IMG/VR virus record: IMGVR_UViG_3300025102_000078
Location: 1 to 41,494 of that record
DNA: 41,494 bases
Origin: a virus
Reading direction: 5' to 3' (one strand)
The notes beneath the pieces are model-generated. The model did no database searches. It was not told where the DNA came from and worked only from the letters and a program-made list of their open reading frames with translations. Position 1 is the stretch's first letter, and each line of letters begins with the position of its first letter. This document shows, in pieces, positions 16,871 through 41,067 of this stretch. The translations under genes and the position numbers were made by a program.

Positions 16871-16958
16871 TATATAGGAGTGAAATGAAAAAGTTTAATA
16901 ACTTGTATTCACAACTTTTCCGATATACAATATACAATATCTGGTCACAAGATAAAAA
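16871..16958 (+). repeat. Two-copy dispersed repeat, copy 1
   Basis: A 25-nt block (16871-16895, containing AGGAG and ATGAAAAAGTT) is identical to 38751-38775. It is followed by shared blocks TTCCGATATACAATAT (16918-16933), CTGGTCACA (16941-16949) and GATAAAAA (16951-16958), in the same order as in copy 2. Spacing differs between copies. Confidence 0.85.
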
Positions 16959-17001
16959 CGGATTTAAAAAAAGTAGCACAACTTTTTTATTTTGGTACTA
17001 A
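16885..17001 (+). CDS. Possible 38-aa peptide within repeat copy 1
   Basis: ATG at 16885 is preceded by AGGAG at 16876-16880. The frame encodes MKKFNNLYSQLFRYTIYNIW and 18 further residues to TAA at 17001. A related peptide (MKKLMN...FRYTISNI) is encoded in the other repeat copy. The good ribosome site favours translation. Against it, one conserved block is read in different frames in the two copies, so the DNA or RNA may be what is conserved. Treat as tentative. Confidence 0.35.
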   Translation: MKKFNNLYSQLFRYTIYNIWSQDKNGFKKSSTTFLFWY

Positions 17002-17973: not shown

Positions 17974-18767
17974 TGGCTAAAGAAATAGTTGAAAAGCAAA
18001 ACACTCAGCTTGCAATGAGTGGGTTTGAAGATGTTTCAGTAACAGGATTTGCTGAAGTAAGTGCAGAGGATATGTCTATACCATTTTTGCGTATTCTTGA
18101 TAAAGGTTCACCACAGGTAAACAAAAGAGATGGTGCATATGTCGATGGTGCTGAGCCAGGAATGATATACAATACAGTAGCTAATGAAGTTTACGATGGT
18201 GAATTAGGTGTTTCCGTGATGCCTTGTTATTTTAATCGTAGGTTTATTGAGTGGAAACCTCGTGAGTCTGGTGGTGGTTATATGGGTAGTTATTTACCTG
18301 ATGACCCAATAGTAAAAACAACTACAAAGAACGATAAAAATGCAGATGTATTACCTAATGGTAATCTACTTTCTAATACTGCTCAACACTTTGTATTATT
18401 AGCAACTGCTGATGGTAGTTTCAGTCGTGCTTTAATAACTATGTCTAGCACACAGTTAAAGAAGTCCAGACGTTGGATTACACAAATGAATGCTTTAACA
18501 GCGATGGGTAAGAACGGTCCGTACACTTTACCTATGATGTCCCATTTATATAAGCTTACTACAGTTCCCGAGCAGAATGATATGGGTTCTTGGTTTGGTT
18601 GGGTTATTAATAAAGGAAAACAAATAGACTTAGCTGATAACCATGAAAAGCACATGTTTGATGCTGCGATAGCTTTTGCTAAATCTGTACAAGCTGGAGA
18701 AGTAGAAGTAAAAGAACCCTCTGCTGAGCCAGCCTCACAAGAAGTAAAAGACGATATACCATTTTAG
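17973..18767 (+). CDS. Single-stranded DNA-binding-like protein with DDIPF tail
   Basis: 264 residues. The final residues are VKDDIPF after an acidic Glu/Pro/Ser linker, the same tip that bacterial SSB uses to recruit replication and repair partners (E. coli SSB ends DDDIPF). The body does not look like bacterial SSB but fits phage-type SSB-like proteins, with aromatic-rich beta segments (PCYFNRRFIEWKPRESGGGY, GSWFGWVINKGKQ). It ends the first early operon, just upstream of a strong terminator, and is followed by primase. DNA binding is inferred from the tail and position. Confidence 0.7.
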   Translation: MAKEIVEKQNTQLAMSGFEDVSVTGFAEVSAEDMSIPFLRILDKGSPQVNKRDGAYVDGAEPGMIYNTVANEVYDGELGVSVMPCYFNRRFIEWKPRESGGGYMGSYLPDDPIVKTTTKNDKNADVLPNGNLLSNTAQHFVLLATADGSFSRALITMSSTQLKKSRRWITQMNALTAMGKNGPYTLPMMSHLYKLTTVPEQNDMGSWFGWVINKGKQIDLADNHEKHMFDAAIAFAKSVQAGEVEVKEPSAEPASQEVKDDIPF

Positions 18768-18800
18768 TTCGGTTGGAAGGACTGATCACCTTACAACTGC

Positions 18801-18843
18801 GAGGGCTACATTTTTTACCTCATTTGTAGCCCTCACCTTTTTT
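18801..18843 (+). terminator. Rho-independent terminator after the SSB-like gene
   Basis: A perfect 10-bp stem GAGGGCTACA (18801-18810) / TGTAGCCCTC (18825-18834) is followed by ACC and six T. It lies 33 nt after the SSB-like stop, and its T-run abuts the ribosome site of the primase gene. Confidence 0.9.
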
Positions 18844-18853
18844 GGAGAAACTA

Positions 18854-24191: not shown

Positions 24192-24214
24192 TACCGACAA
24201 AATAAACCTTGTCA

Positions 24215-24256
24215 TGCCAATGTGCATATTGCAGAATATGAACATTGGCATTTTTT
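24215..24256 (+). terminator. Rho-independent terminator after the DUF932 gene
   Basis: A long hairpin: TGCCAATGT (24215-24223) pairs with ACATTGGCA (24242-24250), an inner CATATT/AATATG extends the stem after one mismatch, and six T follow. The next ribosome site (GAAAGGAAAG) starts only 4 nt after the T-run. Confidence 0.92.
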
Positions 24257-24274
24257 CATAGAAAGGAAAGATAC

Positions 24275-35132: not shown

Positions 35133-35423
35133 TTATTGTACTTTAGTATATATTTTGTAGTCAATAACTACATCGTCAGTTTTAAGCCACTTACTTTTTG
35201 TATCGTCATGCTTAAACCACTTTGTATCGTCGTGCTTTATAAATACTTGGCAGTCTTGGTTTAATACAGGGGCGTCGGGCTCGTGCATTACTGTATAGGT
35301 AGCCTCGTAAAAATTGCTCGCTTTTAATATGTTTGAGACAATCTCTACAGCTACACCACTTATGTCAACAGTCTTCACTGTATAATGGTGGTGGTCAATA
35401 AAGTATAGTGTTTGTACGCTCAT
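35133..35423 (-). CDS. Lone minus-strand protein with short internal repeats
   Basis: 96 residues. The minus-strand ribosome site AAAGGAGAA lies just before ATG 35423. The C-terminal third repeats a short unit: KHDDTKWF, KHDDTKSKWL, KTDD, seen also in the DNA. The N-terminal part is beta-like with a His cluster (FIDHHHYTVKTVDISG). With its own promoter and terminator it is a self-contained insertion (moron-like) against the direction of its neighbours. No family is recognised. Confidence 0.72.
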   Translation of the reverse strand: MSVQTLYFIDHHHYTVKTVDISGVAVEIVSNILKASNFYEATYTVMHEPDAPVLNQDCQVFIKHDDTKWFKHDDTKSKWLKTDDVVIDYKIYTKVQ

Positions 35424-35455
35424 TTTTATTCTCCTTTTAAGTTGTTTATTTTGCG

Positions 35456-35484
35456 TATTTATAAGGTAGCCCCTGTGAAGTCAA
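35456..35484 (-). promoter_or_regulatory. Minus-strand sigma70-like promoter
   Basis: On the minus strand, TTGACT (35484-35479) and TAAATA (35461-35456) are 17 nt apart, 33 nt upstream of the start of the minus-strand gene. Confidence 0.6.
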
Positions 35485-35599
35485 AAGACTTTTCTTTTTG
35501 TATCTTTTGTTATCTAAGTTCACAGACACAAAAGGACTTGCTCCTCCCTTTATGGTGGGCTAAATTTAAATATAGCAATAAACATAGAAAGGAATTGTT

Positions 35600-35785
35600 A
35601 TGACGCCAAGTAGTATAGAAGAAGTGCAAGCTTTATTTATTGAGGGTTGTATATCAGCTAAGACAGCTATCTCCCAACTTAAAGCATGGGGCATGAACGA
35701 AAATGATATTGAAACCTTTATTGATACATATACACGAGACCATGCAATCGCAGTCTCTGACAATGTTTTAAGGTTTCCAACTTGA
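35600..35785 (+). CDS. Small helical protein, unknown function
   Basis: 61 residues after GAAAGGAA. Sequence MTPSSIEEVQALFIEGCISA then KTAISQLKAWGMNENDIETF resembles a small UBA/SHOCT-like three-helix unit. It carries the AGAAAGGA leader found upstream of several genes here. Confidence 0.6.
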   Translation: MTPSSIEEVQALFIEGCISAKTAISQLKAWGMNENDIETFIDTYTRDHAIAVSDNVLRFPT

Positions 35786-35786
35786 T

Positions 35787-35849
35787 ATGCTTTATATAAT
35801 ATTAGCATTGATGGTATTGTTAATCTTTTTGTTTGGGGAACGTAAATGA
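35787..35849 (+). CDS. Possible 20-aa transmembrane micropeptide
   Basis: ATG 35787 to TGA 35849, whose ATGA overlaps the next start at 35846. The product MLYIILALMVLLIFLFGERK is a textbook single transmembrane helix with a positive tail. The coupling overlap argues that it is real; the ribosome site (AAGG, 35771) is weak and distant. Confidence 0.4.
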   Translation: MLYIILALMVLLIFLFGERK

Positions 35850-36217
35850 AACCGTTTTATCCATTTACTAATTTCACTATCACTTCACAAGGTAGGTTGT
35901 ACCTAGATATTATAAGTGATGAAATGATAGAAACTATTGAATATGTAAAATGTATGACAGATAAAAGTATGTCTTTTCATCTTTGTTATGCTGAGGAAAT
36001 TATGGCAGAAGAAAACGAAAACGAACAATTTATGCCGACAGGTTATTTACCTCCCTCTCAAACAAGTAAACATGAATCTAATTTATTTAATTTAACAAAT
36101 AGAAGTAAAGTTGTTCAAAACGAAAAGATAAAAAAGTATGGACGTAAACAAGACCAGAAGCCTAAATATGGCAAACCTGGAAGACCTAAAAAGGAGAACC
36201 CTAAAAATGTACAATAG
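35846..36217 (+). CDS. Protein with C-terminal AT-hook-like motif
   Basis: 123 residues. The N-terminal 70 residues are mixed and acidic. The C-terminal 50 are very basic and contain KYGKPGRPKKENPK, a good match to an AT-hook (GRP core with flanking Lys) that binds the minor groove of AT-rich DNA. GGGGA (35835-35839) precedes the start. It overlaps the next gene by 11 nt. Confidence 0.6.
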   Translation: MKPFYPFTNFTITSQGRLYLDIISDEMIETIEYVKCMTDKSMSFHLCYAEEIMAEENENEQFMPTGYLPPSQTSKHESNLFNLTNRSKVVQNEKIKKYGRKQDQKPKYGKPGRPKKENPKNVQ

Positions 36218-36383
36218 AGATCATCTTACAGAAGAAGATATATTGCAAAAAATCAATAATGTAGAAGTATTGCTAGAATTATTACCTGATGATAATCGTT
36301 GGGCTATTAAATTTTGGCAAACTGTTAACTCTGATTTGACGAGGCTAAAAGAACACATTAGAGTTTTAAATCTGCCTAATTAA
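36207..36383 (+). CDS. Small helical protein, unknown function
   Basis: 58 residues from ATG 36207, chosen because AAGGAG (36191-36196) precedes it; the longer frame from 36138 lies inside the previous gene. Sequence MYNRDHLTEEDILQKINNVE is acidic and helical. No family is recognised. Confidence 0.55.
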   Translation: MYNRDHLTEEDILQKINNVEVLLELLPDDNRWAIKFWQTVNSDLTRLKEHIRVLNLPN

Positions 36384-36399
36384 TGTAATTATAATAGCA

Positions 36400-36482
36400 T
36401 AGTTCGCGTGAACTACGGAGCCAGAACCCAGCCGATATATGGGTGTAATTGACCTATTAGAAGGATAGATTGTTCTGGCTCC
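36400..36482 (+). ncRNA. Candidate structured leader RNA with 11-bp closing stem
   Basis: TAGTTC/GAACTA (36400-36415) forms a small hairpin with loop GCGT. One base later GGAGCCAGAAC (36417-36427) pairs perfectly with GTTCTGGCTCC (36472-36482). Between them are two possible short stems, CCA/TGG (36428-36430 with 36440-36442) and CTAT/ATAG (36454-36457 with 36465-36468), giving a multi-branch junction. It lies directly before the gene at 36506. No T-run follows. It is not a tRNA. Confidence 0.55.
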
Positions 36483-36505
36483 ACTTAACTTTAAGGGAGA
36501 AACAA

Positions 36506-36739
36506 ATGAATATACCAGAGTATATAAAATTATCCAATGTACTTGCTGACTTTCATAGCGATAACTTTAAGTTGACTATGGAACAGATAAATCAAAAGAA
36601 CGAACTTGATAATACATTAGATAACTTAAAAAAGATTCTTATAGCCTATGGTTATGAGTTAGTAGATATGATGATCCATAAAGATTATGCTACTGTATTG
36701 AATATCAAAACAAACAGATTTTACAAAGTGAGGTGGTAA
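36506..36739 (+). CDS. Small phage protein, unknown function
   Basis: 77 residues from ATG 36506, chosen because AAGGGAGAAA precedes it; the frame upstream runs into the structured leader. Sequence MNIPEYIKLSNVLADFHSDN with a coiled C-terminal half ending FYKVRW. It ends right before the MazG-like gene, so both share a message. Confidence 0.6.
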   Translation: MNIPEYIKLSNVLADFHSDNFKLTMEQINQKNELDNTLDNLKKILIAYGYELVDMMIHKDYATVLNIKTNRFYKVRW

Positions 36740-37099
36740 ATGAGTGATTTTAGTAAGCCAAATGCTAGAAGGTGGACTAGGTCAAAGTACGATTCAATGG
36801 GGTTTGACGAACTCCTTGATGAAGTAAAAAAGTGGCATGAAGATAGAGGATTAATAGAAGGTAGTTCCGACAAAGACCAATGTTTAAAGTTGATGCAGGA
36901 ATTAGGTGAATTATCTGATGATATTTGTTCCGATATTTATAATGATTTGACCGATTCCCTTGGTGATATGTTAGTTGTAATGATAAATATTATGATTAGG
37001 AATGAAATTAGTGTAAAAGATTGTTTACGCAAAGCATTAGTTGAGATCCAAGATAGAAAGGGTTATAATTTAGATGGAGTATTTGTAAAGACAGAATAG
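36740..37099 (+). CDS. MazG-like nucleotide pyrophosphohydrolase
   Basis: 119 residues. The all-alpha NTP-PPase motif is visible: LKLMQELGELSDDI (ExxE) and, about 20 residues on, DSLGDMLVVMINIMI (ExxD-equivalent), with the C-terminal RKALVEIQDRKGY. Family members hydrolyse nucleoside triphosphates to monophosphates, often non-standard ones. It may clean the dNTP pool or alter host nucleotide signalling. It is a single-domain protein, shorter than bacterial MazG (about 260 aa), as in marine phages. Confidence 0.82.
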   Translation: MSDFSKPNARRWTRSKYDSMGFDELLDEVKKWHEDRGLIEGSSDKDQCLKLMQELGELSDDICSDIYNDLTDSLGDMLVVMINIMIRNEISVKDCLRKALVEIQDRKGYNLDGVFVKTE

Positions 37100-37110
37100 A
37101 GTAGTGGTTA

Positions 37111-37256
37111 AGTCAAGTGTTTTTTTAGTATTGTCTCTTGACTGAAGGGGTACATCTCCTTTCTAGTAACCCCTTCCTACTCTAGCTTACATAATCAGTC
37201 TTAATTTGCGTGGCGACGCAAAAGTTTATTGGGAAACTCTGATTGATTATGTAAGC
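37111..37256 (+). ncRNA. Candidate multi-branched leader RNA before the cupin gene
   Basis: Three consecutive elements: AGTCAAG/CTTGACT (37111-37117, 37137-37143), GAAGGGGT/ACCCCTTC (37144-37151, 37169-37176), and a three-way junction closed by GCTTACATAATCA/TGATTATGTAAGC (37185-37197, 37244-37256). The junction contains TTGCGT/ACGCAA (37206-37221) and AGTTT/AAACT (37223-37238). Almost every base from 37111 to 37256 can be placed in a stem. No long frame is present. The cupin gene starts 25 nt later. Confidence 0.6.
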
Positions 37257-37281
37257 ACAAAATTTTTTTCAGGAGGAAACG

Positions 37282-37608
37282 ATGGACATAGTTAATAGAA
37301 TATGGGGCAAATATGAAGTCCTACAACTCGATCACGATTGTAAAGTAAAAAAGTTAACGATTAATCCATATAAACAAATCTCTAAACAATATCATATGCA
37401 CAGGAGCGAACATTGGCTCGTTACAAAAGGAGAAGCAACTGTTTATCTTGATGGTGTATTCTACTCCCTTGTAAAAGGCGAAAGTATAGATATCCCACAA
37501 ACAAGTATTCATTATATAGCAAACGAGACTGATGGACCTCTAACCATTATTGAAACACAACTCGGTACATATTTTGGGGAAGACGATATTGTGAGGCTAA
37601 AAGACTAA
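37282..37608 (+). CDS. ManC-type cupin (mannose-6-phosphate isomerase II domain)
   Basis: 108 residues. The sequence fits the C-terminal isomerase domain of bifunctional ManC proteins: WGKYEVLQLD, KVKKLTINPYKQISKQYHMH with metal ligands H38, H40 and E43/H44, GESIDIPQTSIHYI and ETQLGTYFGEDDIVRLKD. The complete enzyme interconverts fructose-6-phosphate and mannose-6-phosphate. Here the pyrophosphorylase part is missing, as in stand-alone phage cupins, so it could be an auxiliary metabolic or capsule-related gene. It follows a structured leader and AGGAGG. Confidence 0.85.
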   Translation: MDIVNRIWGKYEVLQLDHDCKVKKLTINPYKQISKQYHMHRSEHWLVTKGEATVYLDGVFYSLVKGESIDIPQTSIHYIANETDGPLTIIETQLGTYFGEDDIVRLKD

Positions 37609-37615
37609 ACAAGAA

Positions 37616-37644
37616 TTGCTTATCGGGTTATCCGTTGTTACTAT
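37616..37644 (+). promoter_or_regulatory. Sigma70-like promoter (TTGCTT-17-TACTAT)
   Basis: TTGCTT at 37616-37621 and TACTAT at 37639-37644, 17-nt spacer, 37 nt upstream of the start at 37682. The GTTGTTACTAT context is shared with the promoter at 33727. Confidence 0.65.
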
Positions 37645-37681
37645 TTATTTAACGTAAACAACAACTTAAGAGGAGAAGTTA

Positions 37682-37939
37682 ATGTTAAAACTATACAAAG
37701 ATGTTCCTTTGACAGCAAGTCAACAGCATGAACTTAATCTTAGAATAGCAAGTGCCGAGTATTGTAATTCCGACCCCCATACTACTTCAGCCGATATTCG
37801 TTACTTTGAACGTAAGGATTTAGTTGATTCTATTAGGCTAGGTACTTATGAAGAGTTTAAAGTAATGCGACAAGTGTTTAATGCGAAAGGGTTACTTGAT
37901 TGGCATAGAGATTATAGAATGCGAAAGGGAGATTTGTAA
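37682..37939 (+). CDS. Small phage protein, unknown function
   Basis: 85 residues after AGAGGAG. Sequence MLKLYKDVPLTASQQHELNL is charged and helical, with a DWHRDYRMRKGDL end. It is coupled to the next gene by one-base overlap. No family is recognised. Confidence 0.6.
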   Translation: MLKLYKDVPLTASQQHELNLRIASAEYCNSDPHTTSADIRYFERKDLVDSIRLGTYEEFKVMRQVFNAKGLLDWHRDYRMRKGDL

Positions 37940-38136
37940 TGGAAAAAGACTGGGTTGTCCTAAGGTGGGCTAAAGATAATTTTGCGACTGGTAATAAAAA
38001 GGGCGATATTACCCTTTACCCCGACTATGATGAGTGTTGGGGTTCGCCGATGTATGAGGTTGTTGATTATTTTACAGGTACTTATCATAATGCTAAACAA
38101 TTCGCTAATACTTTCAGGGAGAAACCGAATGGCTAA
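37939..38136 (+). CDS. Small phage protein, unknown function
   Basis: 65 residues after GAAAGGGAG. Rich in aromatic residues (WVVLRWAKDNF, YPDYDECWGSPMYEVVDYF). It overlaps the next gene by 8 nt. No family is recognised. Confidence 0.6.
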   Translation: MEKDWVVLRWAKDNFATGNKKGDITLYPDYDECWGSPMYEVVDYFTGTYHNAKQFANTFREKPNG

Positions 38137-38431
38137 AGAATTATATTGTCCCCAATGCAATACAGAGTTTTGGGGCGATTTATCCGTAAATTCTCTGTGT
38201 GGTGGCTGTGGACACGACTTCGCTAAAGGGTTCCAAAATGGAACTCTTGATGTTGTATCGCCGACAGGCAAAAAATATTTATGGAGAACTACTTACCCCG
38301 ATGGCGAAGTAGAATATAATATCACAAATGATAGAGTATCACAAATGGCAGAAACTGAACGATTAAACAAAGTTCATCACCCAGAAAAAATTAAAGTAGA
38401 ACTCATTGACTACGCAACCATAGAAATATAG
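38129..38431 (+). CDS. Zinc-ribbon protein
   Basis: 100 residues from ATG 38129, set by AGGGAGA; the frame upstream overlaps the preceding gene. C7/C10 and C24/C27 (YCPQCNTEFW, LCGGCGHDF) form a rubredoxin-like zinc ribbon at the N-terminus. The C-terminal two thirds are beta then helical. It may be a nucleic-acid- or protein-binding adaptor. Confidence 0.65.
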   Translation: MAKELYCPQCNTEFWGDLSVNSLCGGCGHDFAKGFQNGTLDVVSPTGKKYLWRTTYPDGEVEYNITNDRVSQMAETERLNKVHHPEKIKVELIDYATIEI

Positions 38432-38441
38432 GAGGAAAACT

Positions 38442-38681
38442 ATGGAAAATAAAGAAGGTATGACTACTCATACTAAATTACCACGTCACCCATACGATCG
38501 TGACGATAAATATTGGGCTGAGCAAGAAAGTAAAGCCTATTGGGATGAAAAACTAAAAGATATGTCATGGCAATCTGCCGTGTCCATTATCTCCACGTAT
38601 CTTAAACTAAATAAAAAAAGTATGGATACCGATCACTACTTGCTTTTAGAAACTGCTTGGAATAGAATTCTCAAAGGGTAA
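38442..38681 (+). CDS. Small phage protein, unknown function
   Basis: 79 residues after AGGAGG. N-terminal part is charged (RHPYDRDDKYWAEQESKAYW), the C-terminal half helical (WQSAVSIISTYLKLN). Its stop lies within a GGGTAAA/TTTACCC hairpin (38676-38699). No family is recognised. Confidence 0.6.
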   Translation: MENKEGMTTHTKLPRHPYDRDDKYWAEQESKAYWDEKLKDMSWQSAVSIISTYLKLNKKSMDTDHYLLLETAWNRILKG

Positions 38682-38712
38682 ATCTCTCTACGTTTACCCA
38701 TATGCCCCTAAG

Positions 38713-38747
38713 ACTCCGTGGACCGATAACAATGGTTCACGGAGTTT
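38713..38747 (+). terminator. Terminator-like hairpin before repeat copy 2
   Basis: ACTCCGTGGACC (38713-38724) pairs with GGTTCACGGAGT (38734-38745), one G-T wobble, followed by only a weak T-run. The loop side CCGATAACA (38723-38731) can instead pair with TGTTATCGG (38843-38851), giving an alternative fold. Confidence 0.55.
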
Positions 38748-38750
38748 GCT

Positions 38751-38860
38751 TATATAGGAGTGAAATGAAAAAGTTAATGAATTATTTTTTTGAAATATTC
38801 CGATATACAATATCTAATATCTTACTTCATCTGGTCACACACTGTTATCGGAGATAAAAA
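38751..38860 (+). repeat. Two-copy dispersed repeat, copy 2
   Basis: 38751-38775 is identical to 16871-16895. TTCCGATATACAATAT (38798-38813), CTGGTCACA (38831-38839) and GATAAAAA (38853-38860) follow in the same order as in copy 1. It lies directly upstream of the small terminase gene. Confidence 0.85.
38765..38857 (+). CDS. Possible 30-aa peptide within repeat copy 2
   Basis: ATG 38765 after AGGAG encodes MKKLMNYFFEIFRYTISNIL and 10 more residues to TAA 38857. The start and FRYTIxNI block are shared with the peptide at 16885. The C-termini are unrelated because the conserved CTGGTCACA block is read in another frame. Tentative. Confidence 0.35.
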   Translation: MKKLMNYFFEIFRYTISNILLHLVTHCYRR

Positions 38861-40623: not shown

Positions 40624-41067
40624 ATGACTAAAACTACTAAAAAGATGACTAAGGCATCATTAACCTTAGACGCTCCAATTAAAACTGTAAAATCAGTTGA
40701 GTTAAAAGTGACTGACAAGGAGCTATCCTACAATGACATCTGGAAGTTCGTCCAGGAGCATGCAGGAGGTCAAGAATCCAATGTAGTGGTTGTCCCACTT
40801 GATAACTGTGACTTGGCAAGTGACAAGCCTGTCCCATTCGGCTATGGAGGTCAGCCTGGAGGCGTCCGACAAATGATTCAGGATTGGTTATTATTCGGTG
40901 TCGGCAAGGACAAAGATATGTCCCTTAAGACCATACTCAATAAAGCTGCTCCTCTTGGACACAGTCGCAAAAAGCCTACTTGTCTACATGCTCTCATGCA
41001 CGGAGGATACTCACCGTCCAGCAAATACTGGATGACTCCGTACATCAAGCTCGTAGTCAAAGCTTAA
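40624..41067 (+). CDS. Unknown protein, first of a paralogous pair
   Basis: 147 residues after the TCGTAGAAAGG leader (40605-40615). The Lys/Thr-rich N-terminus precedes SYNDIWKFVQEHAGG and VVVVPLDNCDL, which recur in the next gene. The C-terminal half (HSRKKPTCLHALMHGGYSPS) has conserved-looking Cys/His. No family is recognised. Codon use is G+C-richer than in most of the window. Confidence 0.7.
   Translation: MTKTTKKMTKASLTLDAPIKTVKSVELKVTDKELSYNDIWKFVQEHAGGQESNVVVVPLDNCDLASDKPVPFGYGGQPGGVRQMIQDWLLFGVGKDKDMSLKTILNKAAPLGHSRKKPTCLHALMHGGYSPSSKYWMTPYIKLVVKA

Follow-up and report, generated by a model that had tools for sequence, protein, structure and literature searches.

In the messengers of T7-type phages RNase III processing sites are found between genes, and in phage HK022 the put RNA is an antitermination signal acting on RNA polymerase. 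Among marine phages, two structured RNAs, manA (RF01745) and wcaG (RF01761), occur as riboswitch candidates, and manA RNAs precede mannose genes (PMC2864571). Structured phage leaders as such are already known. The RNA described here, named leader 2, is a real structured element which is conserved in close relatives, matches no described RNA family and lies outside the catalogued ones.

The DNA analysed, a virus record of 41,494 bases from IMG/VR, is referred to as the window, and a second contig of 55.8 kb (L002/L118) is practically identical to it over the compared part. The DNA polymerase is 50-56% identical to that of phage 023Pt_psg01, phage DSL-LC04 and the pelagiphages HTVC023P and HTVC027P. 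No tRNA or tmRNA gene was found in the window with ARAGORN. Leader 2 is located in a + strand gene cluster, flanked upstream by a gene for a MazG-like pyrophosphatase (36740..37099; Pfam PF03819 weak with 20.1 bits at a cut-off of 22, PHROG MazG-like 2.7e-27) and downstream, on the same strand, by a cupin gene (37282..37608; Pfam PF01050 2.7e-32) of the MannoseP_isomer/Cupin_2 type. The cupin of 108 amino acids is a stand-alone protein of the PF01050/Cupin_2 type, and its putative link to sugar metabolism has domain similarity as its sole basis. The two genes are separated by 182 nt. A candidate promoter (TTGAGA-17-TATAAT, 11/12) at 37041..37069 on the + strand ends 27 nt before the element; no other site on the same strand of the window reaches 11/12, with 0-2 expected by chance (mean about 1.2), and its hexamers are identical in the relatives. 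Elsewhere in the window, gene 40624 (40624-41067) has a second copy of about 50% identity just downstream, two copies being present also in several relatives (e.g. L197, 7718-8068). Near-duplicate segments (TATATAGGAGTGAAATGAAAAAGTT...TTCCGATATACAATAT) at about 16880-16960 and 38750-38830 encode similar small ORFs.

A complex structured RNA in front of the cupin gene had been proposed in a sequence-only reading, and this was borne out: the region 37111-37256 folds with -49.2 kcal/mol compared to a mean of -28.7 for 200 dinucleotide shuffles, none of which was as low (z -5.5). The true 5' edge is situated 14 nt further upstream, and the element spans 37097-37256. The helices of the two stacked hairpins and the three-way junction originally described are present; however, the hairpins are enclosed by a further stem, resulting in two consecutive three-way junctions. 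Module I (37097..37184, + strand; z -3.4), which is defined by folding and by pairs kept in four sequences, is closed by stem P1 of 8 bp (TAGAGTAG/CTACTCTA, 37097-37104/37177-37184) and contains the hairpins H1 (37111-37117/37137-37143) and H2 (37144-37153/37166-37176). Module II (37185..37256, + strand; z -6.5) consists of a closing stem and the hairpins TTTGCGT-GGCG-ACGCAAA and AGTTT-ATTGGG-AAACT, including the arms TTGCGT/ACGCAA and AGTTT/AAACT exactly as first read. Its closing stem, reported as a perfect one of 13 bp, does comprise 13 perfect pairs and in addition one G.U and two more, which makes 16. The term "nearly all pairable" proved too strong, since 106 of the 160 nucleotides are paired. 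Likewise, the element fills most but not all of the gap before the cupin gene, the last 25 nt up to the start codon being ACAAAATTTTTTTCAGGAGGAAACG, a U run plus Shine-Dalgarno (SD) sequence. The module II stem is followed by the 6-nt spacer ACAAAA and then, at 37263..37278 on the + strand, by a run of 7 U (7-9 in relatives) and the SD sequence CAGGAGG (CAGGAGA in relatives), both recognised by sequence and by comparison with the relatives; the U run is present in all five genomes carrying the element. At the other end, stem P1 begins with the three bases of the mazG stop codon. When a ribosome reaches the end of mazG, the 5' strand of P1 would lie under it, so that whether module I folds may hinge on translation of mazG.

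The element is present in the window and in its near-identical counterpart L002, and four other contigs carry it at 89-92% identity. Loss of base pairing in homologous leaders had been named as an outcome that would refute the proposal. Instead, in a hand-made structural alignment of four distinct sequences standard pairing is kept at 53 of 53 pairs (25 in module I, 28 in module II). Two double compensatory changes, both in module I, distinguish the most distant relative (G-C to A-U in H1 and U-A to G-C in H2). Five further stem positions show single changes, every one of them either an A facing U that becomes G or a C facing G that becomes U. These give G.U pairs on the + strand and A.C mismatches on the other, indicating that the + strand RNA is the selected form. 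Covariation is missing in module II because this part is nearly invariant; its support is thermodynamic, and it has not diverged clearly less than neutral change would give. In the loop of H1, on the other hand, 9 of 19 sites differ between genomes with 99% identity in the adjoining genes, so that loops vary while stems stay. The same loop divergence, together with the exchange of the neighbouring leader 1 as a block between relatives, might also be explained by a structure acting at the DNA level or arising by accident, for example inverted repeats spread through recombination, with no role of the RNA. Single changes which keep pairs only in the + strand RNA argue against this, and it is considered very unlikely.

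Beyond one clade of five IMG/VR contigs no copy was found by protein neighbours, DNA patterns or covariance models. The covariance models R1 and R2, run over 1.2 Mb of relatives, matched the clade itself alone. A search for distant copies by DNA pattern gave 24 matches in viral contigs, which were discarded, being either known relatives or matches by chance; contigs of bacterial and archaeal genomes did not match the pattern, and annotated phages contained no DNA match to the element.

None of the Rfam 15 families, manA (RF01745) included, matched the 41,494-base window at the gathering score, nor did any match related loci at E up to 1. Lowering the stringency to E up to 5 within 35400-38500 did not yield a match to the manA or wcaG (RF01761) model either, and in 20 related cupin loci scanned with Rfam a tRNA cluster was the only hit, without manA. 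In 73 other phage loci with a 45-58% identical cupin there is usually no space between this gene and the one upstream, the two overlapping or adjoining (median gap -1 nt), and just 3 of them have a gap of at least 100 nt. Related cupins are therefore mostly without a leader, which ties leader 2 to this locus in this clade and not to the cupin family, and this in turn argues against an aptamer for a cupin-related metabolite. A manA-type sugar riboswitch was rejected on these grounds, and the idea of a sensor for sugars or GDP-mannose found no support. More generally, leader 2 could be a riboswitch sensing a ligand such as a sugar phosphate or nucleotide sugar: two elaborate junctions stand directly 5' of a metabolic-type gene, and marine phages do have such candidates in manA and wcaG (PMC2864571). 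Furthermore, the loop of H2 (ATCTCCTTTCTA, 37154..37165, + strand) is complementary to SD sequences and the same in relatives, except for one without the final A. In all relatives it can form 5-6 bp with the cupin SD sequence (-7.4 to -8.6 kcal/mol), the sole SD change leaving the pairing intact as G.U. However, 7% of all 12-mers of the window pair with this SD sequence equally well, and so do a third of shuffled loops; an anti-SD switch via H2 was abandoned although the pairing is conserved. An aptamer conserved across genomes together with its controlled gene was not found, the element being confined to one clade, and a ligand-sensing leader is regarded as distinctly unlikely. A mimic of the alphaproteobacterial 16S tail in the H2 loop was dismissed as well: the tail that it matches, CCTCCTTTCTAAGG, is found across many bacterial phyla, which makes the loop uninformative on the host.

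Leader 2 is not the only structured joint of this phage. A 90-nt segment whose end lies 16 nt upstream of the cupin start reaches z -7.5, and no other of the 52 scored gene starts of the window is as strongly structured. Five starts stand apart with z of -4.7 or lower (the cupin, 36506, about 32714, about 18854 and about 24271), followed by the next one at -2.6, and at all five the strong helices end 16-34 nt upstream. Leader RNA 1, which had been noticed upstream of leader 2, is real (36399-36490; z -4.6) and modular, with structured blocks of type A or B that stand single or in tandem, as if exchanged by recombination: the window and L001 have type A, L005 has type B and L004 has both, and in the distant contigs L173 (14305-14357) and L174 (5658-5710) B comes first and A second. 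The joint before the primase gene (18764-18850) carries a two-hairpin RNA without Rfam match, and the corresponding model R3 matches about 30 of 67 sources, once each (homologues in L118-L191). In alignments drawn from the sequence directly upstream of the primase gene, covariation in the first hairpin amounts to 0.559 as compared to 0.265 for shuffled and 0.09-0.22 for slid partners, and in relatives both sides change in 7 of 11 pairs. The conserved core of this hairpin lies around TTGATC, most copies having a palindromic GATC, while the second hairpin is variable in sequence, retains a long stem in most, ends about 16-24 nt before the start and has often lost the U run. At 24208-24271 a strong hairpin is directly followed by T6 and the SD sequence of the next gene, and several relatives keep a hairpin of different sequence at this position. 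Leader 2 fits the layout of this phage group, namely structured RNA, a short U-rich or unpaired spacer, SD sequence and start. Small hairpins of the window also present a recurrent ribosome-binding site, (G/A)TAGAAAGG, in their loops (about 24259, 32700, 35585, 39503 and 40608), as in AACTTC-GTAGAAAG-GAAGT. A separate 15-bp hairpin at 38706-38756 (z -6.1) has a loop region, CCGATAACA, whose exact reverse complement, TGTTATCGG, follows about 110 nt further on (about 38835-38855), a possible pseudoknot.

The strong stem of module II and the subsequent T7-9 could be taken for a partial terminator which attenuates transcription and lowers cupin expression, and a stem followed by a T run is seen at two other joints of the window (24251 and 32658). 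The U run, however, begins only 6 nt past the stem, whereas in a canonical intrinsic terminator or attenuator a GC-rich stem is directly followed by the U tract. Moreover, the module II stem was not called by a terminator scan, and at the primase joint of relatives the stem stays where the U run is often lost. Attenuation is accordingly judged unlikely. That the primase-joint helices persist without U run speaks against a shared function in termination and in favour of processing or insulation. The compact and independent fold would also suit a stand-alone small RNA which starts at the candidate promoter at 37041-37069, ends at the U run and acts in trans through the SD complement of the H2 loop. 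But a promoter match of 11/12 can be expected by chance in a window this long, a clean terminator is lacking and the SD sequence follows at once, so that the region reads as a leader; a small RNA appears quite unlikely. Adjacent hairpins soon after a possible promoter recall, in addition, an antitermination signal like the put RNA of HK022. Against such a signal speak the position in the middle of a cluster before a minor gene and the lack of sister copies at the other promoters of the window, and antitermination is a most improbable reading.

The explanation that is tentatively favoured is a cis-acting intergenic element in the mazG-cupin mRNA, which would either set a processed 5' end or insulate the ribosome-binding site of the cupin gene. 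From the anatomy of the element we infer this mechanism, including co-transcription, cleavage and the effect on expression. Thus mazG and the cupin gene would be co-transcribed on one messenger, with two rigid three-way junctions just 5' of the site where ribosomes bind for the cupin gene, bordering on the initiating ribosome. A double-strand ribonuclease of the RNase III type may cut at the element, or a 5' end may be protected there, and this would separate translation and stability of the cupin message from the message upstream and give a clean U-rich leader with its own SD sequence. By stacking on the 7-bp first hairpin, the 16-bp stem of module II could reach about two helical turns, which is in the size range of RNase III substrates. 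As in an RNase III site, an intergenic helix of about two turns is predicted, and it ends 25 nt before the start.

A broader reading would be that a fixed handful of genes in this phage group is controlled by exchangeable structured leader RNAs, each ending where the ribosome footprint begins. Leader 2 would be one module of an undescribed system in which RNA sets gene dosage or timing in response to a common factor, i.e. an RNA-binding protein or nuclease of phage or host; this is speculative and considered rather unlikely. In a limited word search of PMC9599517, PMC2864571 and PMC12753301 no passage on leader 2 or the primase-joint RNA was found. RNA-level gene control in such phages appears little studied, the one genome paper checked by words (PMC9599517) giving no mention of intergenic, noncoding or promoter elements. 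Uncatalogued structured leaders, one of them strongly covarying, offer a concrete route to testing post-transcriptional gene regulation in these phages.

Leader 1 and the primase-joint RNA of the same phage resemble leader 2 in being structured RNAs that end about 16-25 nt before a start codon, but differ from it in that no homology in sequence or structure was detected. The manA and wcaG motifs are, like leader 2, structured leaders situated 5' of metabolic genes of marine phages, whereas leader 2 is restricted to its clade and matches neither model at E up to 5. Compared to the RNase III sites of T7-type phages, which are formed by one irregular hairpin, leader 2, as a putative site of this kind, comprises two three-way junctions and belongs to an unrelated phage; the layout is nevertheless the same, with a structured intergenic RNA just 5' of the next ribosome-binding site in a gene cluster running in one direction.
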